Source: Nautilus pompilius (lineage: Eukaryota > Mollusca > Cephalopoda > Nautilida > Nautilidae). From it: a stretch of DNA of 64,000 bases. The position numbers were made by a program, and so were the translations under genes. The stretch spans positions 1,017,001 to 1,081,000 of the forward strand of contig JACATO010000307.1 in the NCBI GenBank assembly GCA_018389105.1, given 5' to 3'. The notes under the pieces were generated by a model. The model saw only the letters and a list, made by a program, of their open reading frames with translations. It did no database searches and had not been told where the DNA came from. Position 1 is the first letter of the stretch. The number at the start of each line of letters is the position of its first letter. Of the stretch, positions 13,942-58,777 are shown in pieces.

Positions 13942-14456
13942 TTAGTCTTTGCAGCTATTTCTCTAAGGCAACATTTCGCACTTGTATTTACCCAAAATTT
14001 TTCTTCTTTTTATTTTTTTTACTAGCATTGCTTTTTAATCCACAATATTCAAGCTGCTACCATCACAAAGTCAGCAATAATCAATGCATAGTCAAATGCA
14101 TATAAAAATTTTTTCCATCAGATGATGCATCAAATGTTTTACGTCAACACATTTTCCACACAGAGCAACATTAAGATTCATTGATGTTTTTTAAAGTGGC
14201 CAAGAATGCAATTCACAGATGTTACTCAATAAATCACATTCAGTTAATAAACTTTCTATGGAGATTATATATATTATATTTATTTTTTAACTGCAGTTTA
14301 TGAAAAGTTTTTAATAGTTCTTGAATTAACTGAACATTGTTTCAAAGAGATAAGTACACATTAAACTCAAATGATCTGACTTGCTGATTTCTATTCTCTA
14401 TTGTTAACAGATACTAACACTCAGTAACTTGTGAACATAAATACTACTAAAAATTA

Positions 14457-16196
14457 CACTGGTCAACACAATATTTTTGGCAGGAAAAGTGAGACTGGTT
14501 TCTGGGGTTTTCAAGGGCGCTGAATCCGAATCTGACATTTGTTTTTTCAAGTTGGCTCTAGTTTTGGAGATATCACAGGGGGGTCGTTCGTCTGAAATCA
14601 CCCATTCGCGACCATAACTAAACGTACAAAAAACGGCTAAATAGTGCAAAAATGTCAGATATTGATTTTTATGATAATCCAAAACCACAAAGACAGTGTA
14701 AAATCTCAATCTAACAAGTTAAGTTAGATATAACATCATTTCATTTATTAATAAATGAACACTTTTCATATATTTCGAGAATATACAAAAAATTTGCTAA
14801 AAATTTGCTGAATTTTAATTCTCCAAGGGAAAAAAACATTTACATAATCAGTTATATATCATAAATTAATGCAAAGCATTATTATACACTAGATTCTTAG
14901 TTACAATGAACACACAAAACAATATTTTATTCACAAAAGTGAAATTGACGTTTATACGATTTTCGCTTGTGAGCAACTTTCGGGCAGTCTCTCAAAAGGT
15001 TCCAGCAGTAGTCTGCCATCATGTGCTCATCCCATTTGCCTTGATACCTCTCTTCCATTGTTTTGATGTCTTGATGGAATCTCTCTCCTTGCTCCTCACT
15101 GTAATCACCAAGATTACCAGGAAATCTGTCGAGGTGGCTAAACAAGAAATGAACTTTGATGCTCACATTTGCCCCTAGTTTTTCGTATGCAGTAAGCATC
15201 TTACGGACCAATTGCTTGTAATTGTCAGCTTTGTGATTTCCCAAAAAGTTTGTCACTACATCTGTGAAGGACACCCAAGCATTTAACTCAACCATGTTCA
15301 TATGATTAGTGAAGTCAGAATCCCTCATGAGCGTTCGAATCTGAGGTCCATCGAAGATGCCACCTTTAGCTTTTTCGATGGAAAGACCTGGAAATTGCCT
15401 GCATATGTACTTGAAGCAATCCCCATCTTTGTTCAACGCCTTAACAAACTGCTTCATGAGCCCTAGTTTTATGTGCAATGGAGGGAAGATGATTCTATCC
15501 CTGGGTACCAAAGGCTCATTGATGACGTTGGCTGTGCCGACTTCGAGACTTTCTCGTTCTGGCCAGTTCTCCCTTCTCCAGTGCTGGATTCTTGCTCTGC
15601 TATCCCACAAACAAAGAAAGCAGGGATACTTTGTGTACCCACTTTGCTGACCAAGCAGAAAATTCACCATTTTCAAGTCCACACAAATCAGCCATTTATG
15701 AGTGTTGTAATTTAGCTTTTCAAGAACAAATTGGATACCATCATACTCTTCTTTCATCTTGGTAGAATGGCCAAGTGGTACAGGAGCAAACTTATTGCCA
15801 TTATGCAAAAGTACAACTTTTAGACTTGCTTTCGAGCTATCTATAAAGAGACGCCAATCTGCTGGGTCATATGACGAGATCCCCATGCAGTTAAGAAGTG
15901 CAGAAACGTCATTACAAAAGATCAGGTCATCTTCTTTAGAAAAGAAACGAAGCAAGCTGCCTTCCCTTGTCCTATAGTATGTTACATATCAGAAAATTAT
16001 TATTTACTGCTTCTATATTGAAGTATTTCAGGGAGAATTTTAGCAGTTTAGGCTTATTTGAGGCTATCAATATCTTCTAAACTAGAGCCAATCAGACAAA
16101 ACCAATGTTATATTCGTAATCAGCGACCTTCAAAACCCCAGAAAACACTCCTAGATGGTCTGCCAAAGAAAAAAAATAAAAATTTGTTGACCAGTG
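14457..16196. mobile_element. DDE-like DNA transposon, putative CACTA/EnSpm relative (copy 1)
   Basis: A 1,740-bp element starts CACTGGTCAACA and ends TGTTGACCAGTG. TTA on both sides (14,454-14,456 and 16,197-16,199) gives a 3-bp target duplication. Beyond the terminal 11-12 bases, the ends stay complementary, with gaps, for roughly 120 bp. Shared blocks include TTTCTGGGGTTTT, CGCTGA, and TTGGCTCTAGTTT, each seen on the left and, complemented, on the right. The element carries one minus-strand ORF (14,927-15,955). The CACTG terminus, 3-bp duplication and long sub-terminal repeats resemble CACTA/EnSpm (CMC) elements; this assignment is inference. A second, diverged copy is at 49,110-50,475. 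Confidence 0.8.
14927..15955 (-). CDS. Putative DDE/RNase H-like transposase, uncharacterised family
   Basis: An intact 342-codon ORF occupies most of the element. Visible landmarks are a strand-like FIDSS with Asp39 followed by LKVVLLHNG, then ICVDLKMVN with Asp93. Next comes GYTKYPCFLC with Cys112 and Cys115, followed by His125, and a conserved PPLHIKLGLMK with His161. Last is EEQGERFHQD with Glu291. This D...D...CxxC...E order suits an RNase H-fold transposase; which acidic residues are catalytic is inference. The G-x-TK-x-PCxxC segment resembles the G-TKG-xCPxC segment of plant CACTA Tnp2 proteins. The first codon used is TTG. The frame is open for 11 more codons to a stop at 15,989, and TATAG at about 15,972-15,976 could be a splice acceptor. 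An upstream exon may therefore be missing or unrecognised. It lacks frameshifts, so copy 1 is younger than copy 2. I do not know a standard name for this family. Confidence 0.7.
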   Translation of the reverse strand: MLRFFSKEDDLIFCNDVSALLNCMGISSYDPADWRLFIDSSKASLKVVLLHNGNKFAPVPLGHSTKMKEEYDGIQFVLEKLNYNTHKWLICVDLKMVNFLLGQQSGYTKYPCFLCLWDSRARIQHWRRENWPERESLEVGTANVINEPLVPRDRIIFPPLHIKLGLMKQFVKALNKDGDCFKYICRQFPGLSIEKAKGGIFDGPQIRTLMRDSDFTNHMNMVELNAWVSFTDVVTNFLGNHKADNYKQLVRKMLTAYEKLGANVSIKVHFLFSHLDRFPGNLGDYSEEQGERFHQDIKTMEERYQGKWDEHMMADYCWNLLRDCPKVAHKRKSYKRQFHFCE

Positions 16197-16199
16197 TTA

Positions 16200-18629: not shown

Positions 18630-19649
18630 CAGTGGTTCCCAACCTTTTTCTAAAAATGTTGCTTCGCGGTCCCCCTAGATTTTTTTTTACCCTTCGTGGT
18701 CCCCCATAAAATCAGCTCGACCTACTATATTATGTTATTATTATTATTATTTTAGCATGTCAAGGTTTTTGCTTCTATGTCGTCAAGCGAGTATTTCCCA
18801 AAATTTCAGAAACTTTTCTATATATATATATATATAAATCCACTCAGAATTTTTGAAAATATTCAAAAGTGTACTAAAAGCACTTATTCTAAACTGTTAG
18901 TCAATTTAAAAGTCTTAAAAAAAACTGTTGAATTAAAATTTATTCAAAATATGACAATTCTCGAAAATCAAATGAAGAAAAACTTCAATGAGAGATCTGC
19001 ACCTGTTTGGCCTTCAATATTTCATCAATGTTGGGCTGCATTTTTGAAAGAGCCACTCTCATGTCATGCATTACATCGAGTTTGTTTCTCGATCTGGTTT
19101 TGATTGAAACAAGAGTTGAGAACGCTGACTCACACTCATAGGTTGTTGCGAACAGAATCAGCAATTTGAGAGCCATCTTTGCAACATCCGGATATGATTG
19201 TACCATTTCAATCCAGAAGTCGCTGCAACGCATCTGGCGAAAAGCATTTTTGGCAGCTCCATCATTCACCAAGTCAATGAACTGCTCTTCAATGAGATGA
19301 TCTTCGGAAGGCAGCTCGCTGACGGAGATGGAGAATGGATTCAAGAGAAAGTTATAATACTTCTGAAAATTGTGAAGTTCAGGAAAATAGCCTGCAAGCG
19401 TGCAGAGAATATCAACATGATTATTCATCAACTCGAGAATACCAGAATCAACTGAGAGATTATTTTCATCAAGGAAAGCGTTGAGCTCCGGAAATGGTGC
19501 AAAATTCTTCCTTGTTAATTTTAAATGCCACAATTCCAGCTTCATCCTGAAAAAATTCATTTTTTCATGGCAGTGGAGCACGGTGACCTCCTTCCCTTGT
19601 AATGCCAAATTAACGCAGGGGACCGTGGACCCCAGGTTGAGAACCACGG
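18630..19649. mobile_element. hAT element, internally deleted, with 8-bp target duplication
   Basis: A 1,020-bp element starts CAGTGGTTCCCAACC and ends GGTTGAGAACCACGG. It is flanked by a perfect 8-bp duplication GTCTAGTG at 18,622-18,629 and 19,650-19,657. An 8-bp duplication and CAGNGGTT-type ends are diagnostic of hAT elements. The sub-terminal regions both contain GGTCCCC/GGGGACC-like blocks. Full hAT elements are usually around 3 kb; this one retains only the 3' third of the transposase gene, on the minus strand. The clean duplication suggests a relatively recent insertion. Confidence 0.92.
18985..19647 (-). pseudogene. C-terminal part of a hAT transposase (ZBED5/FAM200-like type)
   Basis: This open frame of 220 codons carries the C-terminal half of a hAT transposase. 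Residues about 17-50 (LALQGKEVTVLHCHEKMNFF, then LELWHLKL) match the helical insertion region of vertebrate ZBED5/FAM200-type domesticated hAT proteins. Residues about 145-200 (FWIEMVQSYPDVAKMALKLL, then ATTYECESAFSTL) are the hAT dimerisation motif, with its YxCESxFS signature. The N-terminal BED zinc finger and the first catalytic region are missing. The apparent start codon falls in the terminal inverted repeat, so the frame is open by accident of the deletion and is not a designed gene. It is free of stops, so a short dimerisation-only protein could be made if transcribed. Confidence 0.8.
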
Positions 19650-19659
19650 GTCTAGTGGG

Positions 19660-49105: not shown

Positions 49106-49109
49106 ATTA

Positions 49110-50475
49110 CACTGGTCAACACAATTTTTGCTGACTTATATCTGAGACATGTTTCTGACTAATTTTGGTGGGGGGGTTGAATTCAAATATCACATTGATT
49201 TTTGCCTATCACATCAAGTTTTAACTCTACAGCATACTCCCATTTTTGATCAATCACCATAAAAGAGTACCCAATTACAATGATTTCCACAATCACCTCA
49301 ATCCTATTCTTATTTTATTTAGAATACCATTCCAACAAACAATACCATGAATCAATTTTGAGATTAACAAATATATTGGTTAACTATGACATATCAGGTC
49401 AAAATATTGAAATAGAAAAATAATTGATGCTAGAACTGAATGAATTTTAGTCAAAAATTGGCACACACTAATCCAGAATATTCTTATCATTTCATTTAGA
49501 ATACCGTGCAAACAAAATAATGAGAGACATGGGTTTATTTACATTAACCAATATCAGTAAATGACACATTCTTCCTTCATGGATTAAATTTTTGTCTGTA
49601 GGCTTTCGTGCTTTATTTCCAGACGGTCTCTTTTAATACTCCAACAGTAGTCGACCATCATATGAGTATCTCACCTTCCTTGATATCGCTCCTCCATAGC
49701 TTGTATATCTTGATGGAACCTTTCACCTTGCTCATCTCTTACGTCACCTAGATTTTCAGGAAATTTATCAAGATGACTGTTGAGGAAATGAACCTTTATG
49801 CTCATGTTGCAACCCAGATGATGGAAATTCTTAAGCAATATTTGAATAAGATCTTTGTAATTTTCAGCTTTTTTGTTTCCCAGGAAATTTTTCACAACAG
49901 CCACAAAAGAATTCCATGCTCTTTTCTCCACATCATTCATGCAGTTTGTGAAATGTTGATCTCTCATCAGTTTTCTGATTTGTGGCCCATCAAATGCACC
50001 AGCTTTTATTTTTTCATAACTGAGGCTAGGAAATGTTGTGCATATGTACTTAAAACAGTCACTTTCTATGCTCAGAGCTTTAACATACTGCTTCATTAGA
50101 CCCAGTTTGATGTGGAGAGGAGGAAAGATGATTTTTACCCGATCTACTAGTGGTTGGTTTTTGATATTTGGTTCTCTGACATTTGAACATGTTCTCACCG
50201 GCCAGTTCTTCTGAGTCCAATGCTTGTCCTTAGCTCTACTATTTCACAGGCACAATAAACATGGATATTTCGTGTATCCTCCTTGTTGACCAAGTAAAAA
50301 GTTAACCATTTTAAGATCCTGTAGAACAAAAATTTGAACAAATGAAAATTCCGTAGAAAAACTTGATGTGATAGGCAAAAACCGATTTTATTTTTGAAAT
50401 CAGCACCCCAAAATTAGTTAAAACAATTGTCAGATCTTAGTCAGCAGAAAAAAGGTGAAAAAATGTTGGCCAGTG
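49110..50475. mobile_element. DDE-like DNA transposon, putative CACTA/EnSpm relative (copy 2)
   Basis: A 1,366-bp element starts CACTGGTCAACA and ends TGTTGGCCAGTG, with TTA flanks at 49,107-49,109 and 50,476-50,478. Its ends are complementary, with gaps, over about 110 bp. Shared blocks include CTAATTTTGG and, near the inner limit, TTTTTGCCTATCACATCAAG, seen on the left and complemented on the right. The terminal 12 bases equal those of the element at 14,457, although the rest of the DNA has diverged greatly. The matching ends, duplication length and protein show that the two are one superfamily lineage. The interior is shorter than copy 1 because the 5' part of the gene is missing. Confidence 0.8.
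49584..50321 (-). pseudogene. DDE-like transposase pseudogene, copy 2
   Basis: The minus-strand reading begins DLKMVNFLLGQQGGYTKYPC at about 50,320. It runs through a TGA just after the CxxC pair, then an open 175-codon segment (50,198-49,671) with PPLHIKLGLMKQYVKAL, FDGPQIRKLMRD and DEQGERFHQD. A second TGA follows after YQGR, then DTHMMVDYCW, and the frame ends at TAA (49,584-49,586). The Asp corresponding to residue 93 of copy 1, both Cys, His161 and Glu291 are kept; the portion carrying Asp39 is absent. Immediately before GATCTTAAAATGG is TTTTTGTTCTACAG, an excellent splice acceptor. The family may therefore have an intron here, and copy 2 may have lost its upstream exon by internal deletion. 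Confidence 0.75.
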
Positions 50476-50479
50476 TTAT

Positions 50480-54269: not shown

Positions 54270-55792
54270 CAGGTGCATCTCAAAAAATTAGAATATCATG
54301 GAAAAGTTCATTTTTTTCCGTAATTTAATTCAAACAGTGAAACTTTCATATATTCTAGATTCACTACACATAAAGTGAAATATTTCAAGCCCTTTTTTTG
54401 TTTTAATTTTGATGATTACGGCTTACAACTCATGAAAATCAAAAATCCATTATCTCAAAATATTAGAATATTTCATAAGATCAATAAAAAAAGATTTATA
54501 ATATAGCAATGTCAAACTTCTGAAAAGTATGTTCATTTATGCACTCAATACTTGGTTGGGGCTCCTTTTGCATGAATCACTGCATCAATGCGGCATGGCA
54601 TGGAAGGGATCAGCCTGTGGCACTGCTGAGGTGTTATGGAAGCCTAGGTTGATTTGATAGAAGCCTTCAGCTCGTCTATATTGTTGGGTCTGGTGTCTCT
54701 CCTCTTCCTCTTGACAATACTCCATTGGCTGGCCAATTAAGTACAGTAATAGTATACTCAGCAAACCAGTTAGTAGTAGTTTTGGCACTGTGGGTAGGTG
54801 CCAAGTTCTGCTGGAAAAGGAAATCAGCATCTCCATAAAGCTTGTCAGCAGACGGAAGCATGAAGTGCTCTAAAATCTCCTGGTAGACGGATGCATTGGC
54901 TTTGGACTTGATAAAACACAGTGGACCAACACCAGCAGATGACATGGCACCCCAAATCATCACTGACTGTAGAAACTTCACACTGGACTTCAAGCAACTT
55001 GGATTCTGTGCCCGTCCACTCTTCCTCCAGACTGTGGGACCTTGATTTCCAAATGAAATGCAAAATTTACTTTCATCTGAAAAGAGGACTTTGGACCACT
55101 GAGCAACGGTCCAGTTCTTTTTCTCTTTAACCCAGGTAAGATGCTTCTGACATTGTCTCTGGTTCAGGAGTGGTTTGACACTAGGAATGCGACACTTGTA
55201 GCCCATTTCCTGGACATGTCTGTGCGTGGTGGCTCTTGATGCACTGACTTCAGCCTCAGTTCACTCCTTGTGAAGCTCCTCCAAGTTCTTCAATCGACTT
55301 TGCTTGACAATCCTCTCAAGGCTACAGACATTCCTCTTACTTGTGCACCTTTTCCTACCACACTTTTCCCTTCCAGTCAACTTTCCATGAATATGCTTTG
55401 ATACAGCACTCTGCGAACAACCAGCCCTTTCAGCAATGACCTTCTGTGGTTACCCTCCTTGTGGAGGGTGTCAATGAGTTTCTTCTGGACAACTGTCAAG
55501 TCTGCTCTTCCTCATGATTGTGGTTGTGTGTACTGAACCAGACTGAGAGATTCATGGTATTTATACTGCATAAATAGTGATTTACTCGAAATGGAATATT
55601 GTAATATTTTGAGATGTTTTTCTATTTTTTTTTAGCTGTTGGTCATAATTATCAAAATTAAAATTAAAAATGCTTGAAACATTTTAGTTTACATGTAATG
55701 AGTCTAGAATATATACAATTTTCACTTTCTGAAATAACTGACAAAAAATATTGAACTCTTCCATGATATTCTAATTTTTTGAGGTGTACCTG
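54270..55792 (-). mobile_element. Tc1-like transposon, nearly full length
   Basis: A 1,523-bp element starts CAGGTGCATCTCAAAAAATT and ends, complemented, CAGGTACACCTCAAAAAATT. TA flanks it at 54,268-54,269 and 55,793-55,794. The inverted repeats match well for about 45 bp and continue with lower similarity to roughly 115 bp, including a second conserved block around ATATTCTAGA. Length, TA target and ends are those of Tc1 elements with long repeats. One transposase gene lies between the repeats on the minus strand. Confidence 0.9.
54545..55515 (-). pseudogene. Tc1-like DD34E transposase pseudogene
   Basis: The start ATG is at 55,515-55,513 and the final TGA at 54,547-54,545, close to the family's usual 340 codons. 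In order I see the N-terminal HTH region (AERAGCSQSAVSKHIHGKLT), interrupted by stops near 55,460 and 55,260. An open 176-codon segment (55,206-54,676) follows, with VLFSDESKF, the first catalytic Asp intact, and VMIWGAMSSAGVGPL. The second site reads QQNLAPTHSAK, with Asp replaced by Asn. After VLNWPAN the next dozen residues, normally SPDLNPIENLW with the catalytic Glu, are deleted and the frame shifts. The C-terminus (TPQQCHRLIPSMPCRIDAV, then HAKGAPTKY) survives in another frame. It cannot be active. Confidence 0.9.
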
Positions 55793-57474: not shown

Positions 57475-58777
57475 CGAGGTCTGTCCAAAAAGAAACCGAA
57501 CTTTTAAAACAGCGTGCCAACCAGCCGGTGCAGTGTGCTTGCGACTGCAGTGCTGTGTATCGGTGACCTTGACCTTCAGTCTAATAATAGCGACATCATG
57601 CCATGTCAGTTAGTCATCGATCTACACACACTAGAGTGAATATATGTTTAGTGCACTTGGCGATTTGTCGCAAGTTGAACAATGAAGGATCTTGAAGAGC
57701 AATGTGTTTGTGTGAAATTCTGTTTCATATTGGGAAAAACTTCTACGGAGACTTTTCTAATGTTGCAACAGGCCTATGGGGAGGGTTGTTTGAGCCATAC
57801 GAAATGTCACGAGTGGTACCAGCATTTCAAATTGGGAAGAACATCCACTGGAGACAATTCCAAATCTGGACAACCTTCCACGACAACAGGCGATGATCAC
57901 ATTGAGAAAGTGCGTGCTCTGATCTGTGGAAGTCGTCGCCTGACTCTCTCTGAAGTTTCCAAAGAAGTAGGCATCTGTAAAAGTTTGTGCCACATGATTT
58001 TAAAAGGAAAATTGAACATGCATCGTGTAGCCACAAAATTTATGCCTTGTCTGCTGACAGATGAACAAAAAGAGAACCGAGCCACAATCAGTCAGGAGCT
58101 CTTTGATCATTCGAATGCTGATGAAAGCTTTCTGAAAAGTGTCATAACAGGTGCCGAAATGTGGGTGTATGACTACGATGGTGAAACAAAAAGGCAGTCT
58201 TCGCATTGGGTTGGATCATCATCGCTGCGACCAAAAAACATGTCACAGTCACTCAAATGTGAAGGTGATGTTGATCATCTTTTTTGATTGGAAGGGCGTC
58301 ATTCATCATGAATTTGTTCCATGTGGTCAGACGATCAATAAAGAGTTTTACTTGGAAGTCCTGAGGCAGTTGAGAGAGGCAGTGTGAAGGAGGAGGCCTG
58401 AGGCATGGAAAAACAAAACCTGGATGCTGCACCCTGCAACACGTCACTCTTTATCTGTGACTTTTTTGCAAAGCATGAGACAACTCTCATCCCCAAGCTG
58501 CCATACTCTCTGGATTTGGCCCCATGCACACTTTTTTTTGTTCCCAAAGTTGAAATCCACCCTGAAAGGTAACCGATTTCAGACAATAGAAGAGATCGAA
58601 GAAAATTCGCTACGAGAACTGTAGACGTTCCAGGATGCATTCCAAAACTGGAAAAAATGTTGGGAGCAGTGTATCAAAGGAAGGGAACTATTTTGAAAGA
58701 GACAAGTCTGATTAAATTGTAAGTAAAGCAATAAATTTGTTTTTTAAAAAGTTCGGTTTCTTTTTGGACAGACCTTG
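57475..58777 (+). mobile_element. Full-length mariner element (irritans-like)
   Basis: A 1,303-bp element, the classical mariner length, is flanked by TA at 57,473-57,474 and 58,778-58,779. Its ends are CGAGGTCTGTCCAAAAAGAA and, complemented from the right, CAAGGTCTGTCCAAAAAGAA. The inverted repeats match over about 33 bp, through CCGAACTTTT, with one or two differences. The interior codes for a single mariner transposase on the plus strand, now broken. Confidence 0.93.
57682..58696 (+). pseudogene. Mariner DD34D transposase pseudogene
   Basis: The frame opens at ATG 57,682, giving MKDLEEQCVCVKFCFILGKT and TETFLMLQQAYGEGCLS, then the linker GRTSTGDNSKSGQPSTT and second HTH LTLSEVSKEVGICKSLCHMI. 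VITGAEMW (about 58,142-58,165) shows Ala in place of the first catalytic Asp. At about 58,215-58,250 the frame shifts; KVMLIIFFDWKGVIHHEFVP and GQTINKEFYLEVLRQL continue in the next frame. The second site is damaged, reading LHPATRHS where LHDNAPAH is expected, with a small deletion and another shift. PYSLDLAP, with the third Asp, survives out of frame. FKPKLKSTLKGNRF-like and ENSLREL segments lead to a TAG at 58,622. TFQDAFQNWKKCWEQCI ends at TGA 58,694. Length and order match the family; the gene is dead. Confidence 0.92.

Follow-up and report, generated by a model that had tools for sequence, protein, structure and literature searches.

The window analysed here, a stretch of 64,000 nucleotides from the genome of Nautilus pompilius, carries an element that we assign, with a probability of about 0.87, to the Chapaev3 group of cut-and-paste DNA transposons (Chapaev-Mirage-CACTA), as a non-autonomous copy with an internal deletion, from a family that was active recently; the assignment was made by defining features taken from published descriptions, not by a tree. 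In PMC4079192, Chapaev transposons are described as having CAC/GTG termini and a transposase bearing the motifs C(2)C, LH and H(4)H; all Chapaev3 elements examined there have duplicated TWA, preceded by A and followed by T. The same paper describes a silkworm Chapaev3 element of 2289 bp with a 556-residue transposase, Chapaev3 genes that are mostly single-exon, and internal-deletion derivatives that have been amplified in the genome. The group had thus been described before, in that paper (2014) and in Repbase Reports of 2007 and 2008 as cited in PMC4411706, and our verdict is that the present family is a new one of an already described kind. The coordinates of the features are collected in Table 1.

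Table 1. Features of the element, its flanks and an older relative, in window coordinates.
Feature	Position	Strand	Basis
Probable Chapaev3-type element, 1740-bp internally deleted copy	14457..16196	minus	exact ends, target site duplication, alignment to L032
Target site duplication TTA, A before	14454..14456	no strand	sequence read
Target site duplication TTA, T after	16197..16199	no strand	sequence read
Left terminal inverted repeat, imperfect, outer 12 bp exact	14457..14580	plus	repeat alignment
Right terminal inverted repeat, imperfect, outer 12 bp exact; 5' side of gene	16073..16196	minus	repeat alignment
342-codon open frame, residues 221-562 of the 562-residue transposase	14927..15955	minus	ORF and full-length comparison
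Internal deletion junction, position 211 joined to 988	15985..15986	minus	alignment to L032
Older non-autonomous relative, 1366 bp	49110..50475	minus	ends, TTA duplication, protein similarity

The element begins with CACTGGTCAACA at 14457-14468 and ends with the exact reverse complement at 16185-16196. Pairing of both ends over the terminal 125 bp gave 92 identities in 136 alignment columns and a score of 53, compared to a mean of -4.7 (sd 4.5) and a maximum of 9.5 for 500 single-base shuffles, and a second, separate repeat search found the same inverted-repeat arms of about 120 bp. An earlier note on this DNA had reported matched ends with a TTA duplication, both of which are exact in the window, and terminal repeats of about 120 bp, which the alignment bears out. 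In a genome-wide search for the empty site of the window copy itself, its joined flanks matched only their own two sides.

The ends were then counted in the assembly (728 Mb in 2558 contigs), where the 12-bp end occurs 2789 times exactly (1387 + 1402), a count which takes in older relatives with the same ends, compared to 83 times (53 + 30) for the reversed control, and chance ends are ruled out by this difference. TWA stands directly before 2346 (1164 + 1182) of the 2789 ends and before 0 + 1 of the controls. The genome-wide search for copies with the same ends that the earlier note had suggested as a check thus came out in its favour. Thirty loci (L009-L038), the best matches to the 342-residue query, were analysed further, one of which (L015) is the window copy itself. 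Exact CAC...GTG ends were found on both sides in all 30, matching TWA on both sides in 28, A before it in 28 and T after it in 26; in L010 and L011, the duplications do not match. The PIF/Harbinger superfamily likewise duplicates TWA, so that the duplications in 28 of the 30 loci would also suit an element of that type. Harbinger ends are G-rich, however, whereas the termini here are CACTGG; DDE_Tnp_4 is absent among the Pfam matches listed up to E 10. A PIF/Harbinger element would also have a second gene, for a Myb-like protein; the other frames of at least 100 codons in the two full-length copies are either antisense to the transposase (two, of 101-102 codons) or extend past one end of the element (a third, of 116 codons). 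We rejected a PIF/Harbinger-type element on the termini and the missing DDE_Tnp_4, and regard it as exceedingly improbable.

To compare occupied with empty sites, the flanks were joined for 31 entries with matching duplications, which represent 29 distinct insertions (L086 and L087 show the same one, as do L015 and the window). Within the collected loci, one of the 29, in L013, had a spanning match at another locus: its joined flanks match L019:660-1030, a paralogous empty site, with 346 of 382 columns identical, and this site shows TAA once, without a scar. For the L013 element, both the boundaries and the duplication are thereby fixed. Many copies of the family are also very similar to each other. 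In a protein search of the genome, 65 of the 118 matches scored, from 7206 candidates, were identical over all 342 residues, and in 19 of the 29 loci besides the window copy every aligned element segment was identical to the copy in L032; since the loci are the best protein matches, the latter figure shows the young end of the family and does not sample the whole of it. The genome also has diverged copies, of which some contain stops. The family is therefore real and was recently very active, and the view of the earlier note that this is a DNA transposon with a transposase-derived ORF, present in many copies with common ends, is supported.

The frame of the window copy is only a part of the gene. 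It starts at TTG, its first in-frame ATG is codon 24, and from stop to stop it has 353 codons, being open back to 15988, which corresponds to residue 211 of the full-length protein. The loci L014 and L032 contain copies of 2516 bp, with 0 differences between them, in which a 562-codon ORF starts at an ATG; the transposase frame has 572 codons from stop to stop, all in one frame, and a non-coding 5' exon is possible. Compared to the copy in L032, the window copy consists of positions 1-211 and 988-2516 at 100% identity, i.e., 776 bp have been deleted, and with them the first 210 codons and the DNA upstream of them, while the putative catalytic half was kept. As only these two segments are present, the first 210 residues are missing. 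The earlier note had taken the 342-codon ORF to be intact: the frame is indeed open and uninterrupted, but it is the C-terminal part of 562 codons, and an intact window copy was rejected, given that the ORF is whole in L014 and L032 and lacks its first 210 codons here.

Deleted copies of this kind are common. Apart from the window type, the loci contain 1752-bp copies, in which about position 227 of the full-length element is joined to 989, and copies of 1.57 kb, in which about 208 is joined to 1153 (two elements, in L002/L003 and L006/L007). Counted genome-wide by their exact junctions, the window type occurs 12 times, the window included, the 1752-bp type 134 times and the 1.57-kb type 62 times. 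In a search with the N-terminal 219 residues, in which 150 rows were scored of 2900 candidates, seven rows matched over 200 residues or more at no less than 94%, two of them inside a 572-codon frame. Comparison of the junction counts with these two frames indicates that deleted copies outnumber whole ones. Such an excess, together with the open catalytic half which the deleted copies retain, could be read to mean that the truncated frame has been retained for its product, e.g., because it represses the full-length transposase in a dominant-negative manner. We consider this very unlikely: the frame has no ATG at its start and the first one only at codon 24, some diverged copies have stops, the identity of the copies is explained by recent amplification alone, and the counts are explained by ordinary deletion derivatives.

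A further feature of the full-length element is a perfect palindrome of 68 bp at positions 200-267, about 90 bp upstream of the ATG (the carrier copy is L032 1028-3543, minus strand). The left breakpoints of all three sampled deletion types (about 208, 211 and about 227) lie inside its 5' arm; these types are the ones in the loci fetched and not a survey of all derivatives. With uniform breaks assumed, and computed after the data were seen, the chance of three left breakpoints falling in a 34-bp arm within 858 bp is 6e-5. Since all three types, each amplified separately, start in the 5' arm, it is conceivable, if rather doubtful, that the palindrome is a built-in deletion hotspot, at which gap repair would be interrupted at a hairpin to give truncated copies with only the catalytic half, perhaps limiting the family. 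Ten loci of other families hold eight distinct elements, some of which are incompletely covered, and none of these contains a palindrome whose arms reach 12 bp; L001 has a palindrome of 24 bp, which lies outside its element. No title or abstract in the literature searched deals with palindromes in Chapaev elements, and the main text of PMC4079192 has no word beginning with 'palindrom'. In a family of about 50% identity, deletion derivatives in L008 (the same element in L066 and L067) and L078 keep the N-terminal Cys/His half and about the last 125-133 residues, unlike the truncation in the window.

To analyse conservation of the protein, relatives of 45-74% identity were collected within this genome, on the one hand with a degenerate pattern (20 loci, in which 74 open pieces were found) and on the other from loci sharing the ends, and rows were picked by hand for an alignment of the catalytic half (A2) and one of the N-terminal half (A3). 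Many rows are open pieces of decayed copies, ended at stops, and rows that share a locus, or that show one element in two loci, are non-independent, so the fractions that follow are to be read with this in mind. The acidic residues that the earlier note had named, D39, D93 and E291 (D259, D313 and E511 in full-length numbering), are conserved in 9/9, 11/13 and 14/14 aligned rows, respectively, and are proposed as the catalytic residues. The C(2)C motif is at C112 and C115 (PCFLC; 13/14 rows each), the LH motif at L160/H161 (PPLH; 15/15) and the H(4)H motif at H269 (17/18) and H274 (14/16) in the sequence HFLFSH. All exceptions to the motifs of the catalytic half are in copies that have stops or frameshifts elsewhere. 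In the N-terminal half, a set of Cys and His residues is conserved, namely C16, C19 and C95 (10/10), C60 and C63 (10/11), and H57, H91 and C98 (9/10). A complex zinc finger called 'Chapa' is described in Chapaev3, and as common to TransibSU and RAG1, in PMC4411706, and the N-terminal Cys/His domain is presumably such a zinc-binding domain, which would recognise the ends of the element.

The profile search of the ORF that the earlier note had proposed was made against Pfam. No model matched the catalytic half significantly, either as a single sequence or as an alignment, and the 562-residue protein had no significant match to a transposase. Among matches listed up to E 10, of which weak ones above about 0.1 were mostly filtered, Transposase_21 was absent, as was any Chapa model. 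The full-length protein showed only a hint of zf-AD, below the cut-off (12.9 bits against 28; E 0.14), which also matched in 6 of the 11 rows of A3, with a best E of 0.00029. Searches of solved structures with sequences and profiles of both halves returned no DDE transposase and no RAG1 or Transib chain up to E 10.

The lack of a significant match for the catalytic half suggests a lineage that seems to have no Pfam model there. Taken together with CACTG ends and the 3-bp duplication, this could indicate a CACTA/EnSpm element proper, or an undescribed lineage of Chapaev-Mirage-CACTA beside Chapaev3, either of which we find unlikely. The absence of Transposase_21 among the listed matches argues against it, as do three traits that PMC4079192 gives for Chapaev3: the A-TWA-T target, a single-frame protein some 560 residues long, and the presence of C(2)C, LH and H(4)H. 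CACTA/EnSpm elements likewise have CACTG-type ends and a 3-bp duplication, and belong to the same assemblage (PMC4079192), but the element here is a small one with a single gene, without a Transposase_21 match and with a TWA target, and CACTA in the strict sense was rejected on the profile, the target and the motifs. The claim of the earlier note that this was a poorly described CACTA-like lineage in animals thus holds broadly, in that the element belongs to Chapaev-Mirage-CACTA; its features point to Chapaev3, which has been described, and it is non-autonomous.

Within Chapaev3, the families named in PMC4079192 (Merrow, Garfield and Conan; Chapaev3-n in Repbase) likewise have CAC/GTG ends, an A-TWA-T target, a length of about 2.3-2.5 kb, a transposase of about 560 residues with C(2)C, LH and H(4)H, and amplified internal-deletion derivatives. 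Compared to these by description, the present family is a separate one, with its 68-bp palindrome upstream of the gene. The Chapaev3 MITEs of the same source are generally shorter than 600 bp, whereas the derivatives here are 1.57-1.75 kb long and keep the catalytic half. The order of motifs, D, D, C(2)C, H(4)H, E, is shared with Transib and RAG1. In RAG1 the order is the same, and the target duplication of Transib/RAG1 is 5 bp, in contrast to the 3 bp found here.

Structure prediction, another check that the earlier note had asked for, gave little. AlphaFold with the full-length protein alone reached a mean pLDDT of 32; this run, like the full-length Pfam and structure searches, used a 563-residue reading that includes the codon preceding the ATG. 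With 31 alignment rows, the window frame reached a mean of 54, with the catalytic core mostly below 50 and confidence mainly in a helical stretch at about residues 160-260. Foldseek with this low-confidence model found no match at E <= 0.001 (best E 1.5). The weak model places D39 in a strand, followed by a strand, a helix, a short strand before D93, a helical insertion and a helix with E291, an order that is compatible with an RNase H core and proves nothing.

The window contains other elements. The older relative (Table 1), probably also of Chapaev3 type and belonging to an older family, has the ends CACTGGTCAACA and CACTGGCCAACA (one mismatch), TTA at 49107-49109 and 50476-50478 with A before and T after, and 60% identity to the 562-residue protein over residues 274-550. 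Judged by eye, a 224-codon frame at 18985-19659 (minus) is like the C-terminal part of a hAT-type transposase, and 54676-55260 (minus) and 57679-58287 (plus) are like broken Tc1-type and mariner-type transposases. Genome-wide, the search that scored 150 rows of 2900 candidates found many relatives at about 50% identity, of which 15 rows, at 49-54% identity, have no internal stop and open frames of 570-634 codons; other families of the group may therefore have whole copies in this genome. A viral_contigs scan found no relatives.

In the mechanism that we propose for the Chapaev3-type family, the 2516-bp copy would encode a transposase of 562 residues with an N-terminal Cys/His domain and a C-terminal DD-E domain in which C(2)C and H(4)H would form a zinc site, the metal binding being predicted from the conserved residues. 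This protein would bind the terminal repeats of about 120 bp through its N-terminal domain, and the putative DD-E site would catalyse cutting at the CAC/GTG ends. Insertion into A-TWA-T sites that have been cut with a 3-bp stagger would then leave the TTA or TAA duplication that is observed. Incomplete repair of the gap left by excision, which the palindrome may stall, would give rise to internal deletions such as the one seen at the junction in the window, and the deleted copies would spread in trans. The window copy was probably itself moved in trans by a full-length copy.

These results show that a Chapaev3-type family has very recently spread on a large scale within one animal genome, in which two identical copies with a whole frame stand beside many truncated ones. 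Because the catalytic half has no significant Pfam match, genome annotation will probably label copies of the family as uncharacterised proteins. The family would suit a test of activity for the little-studied Chapaev3 group.
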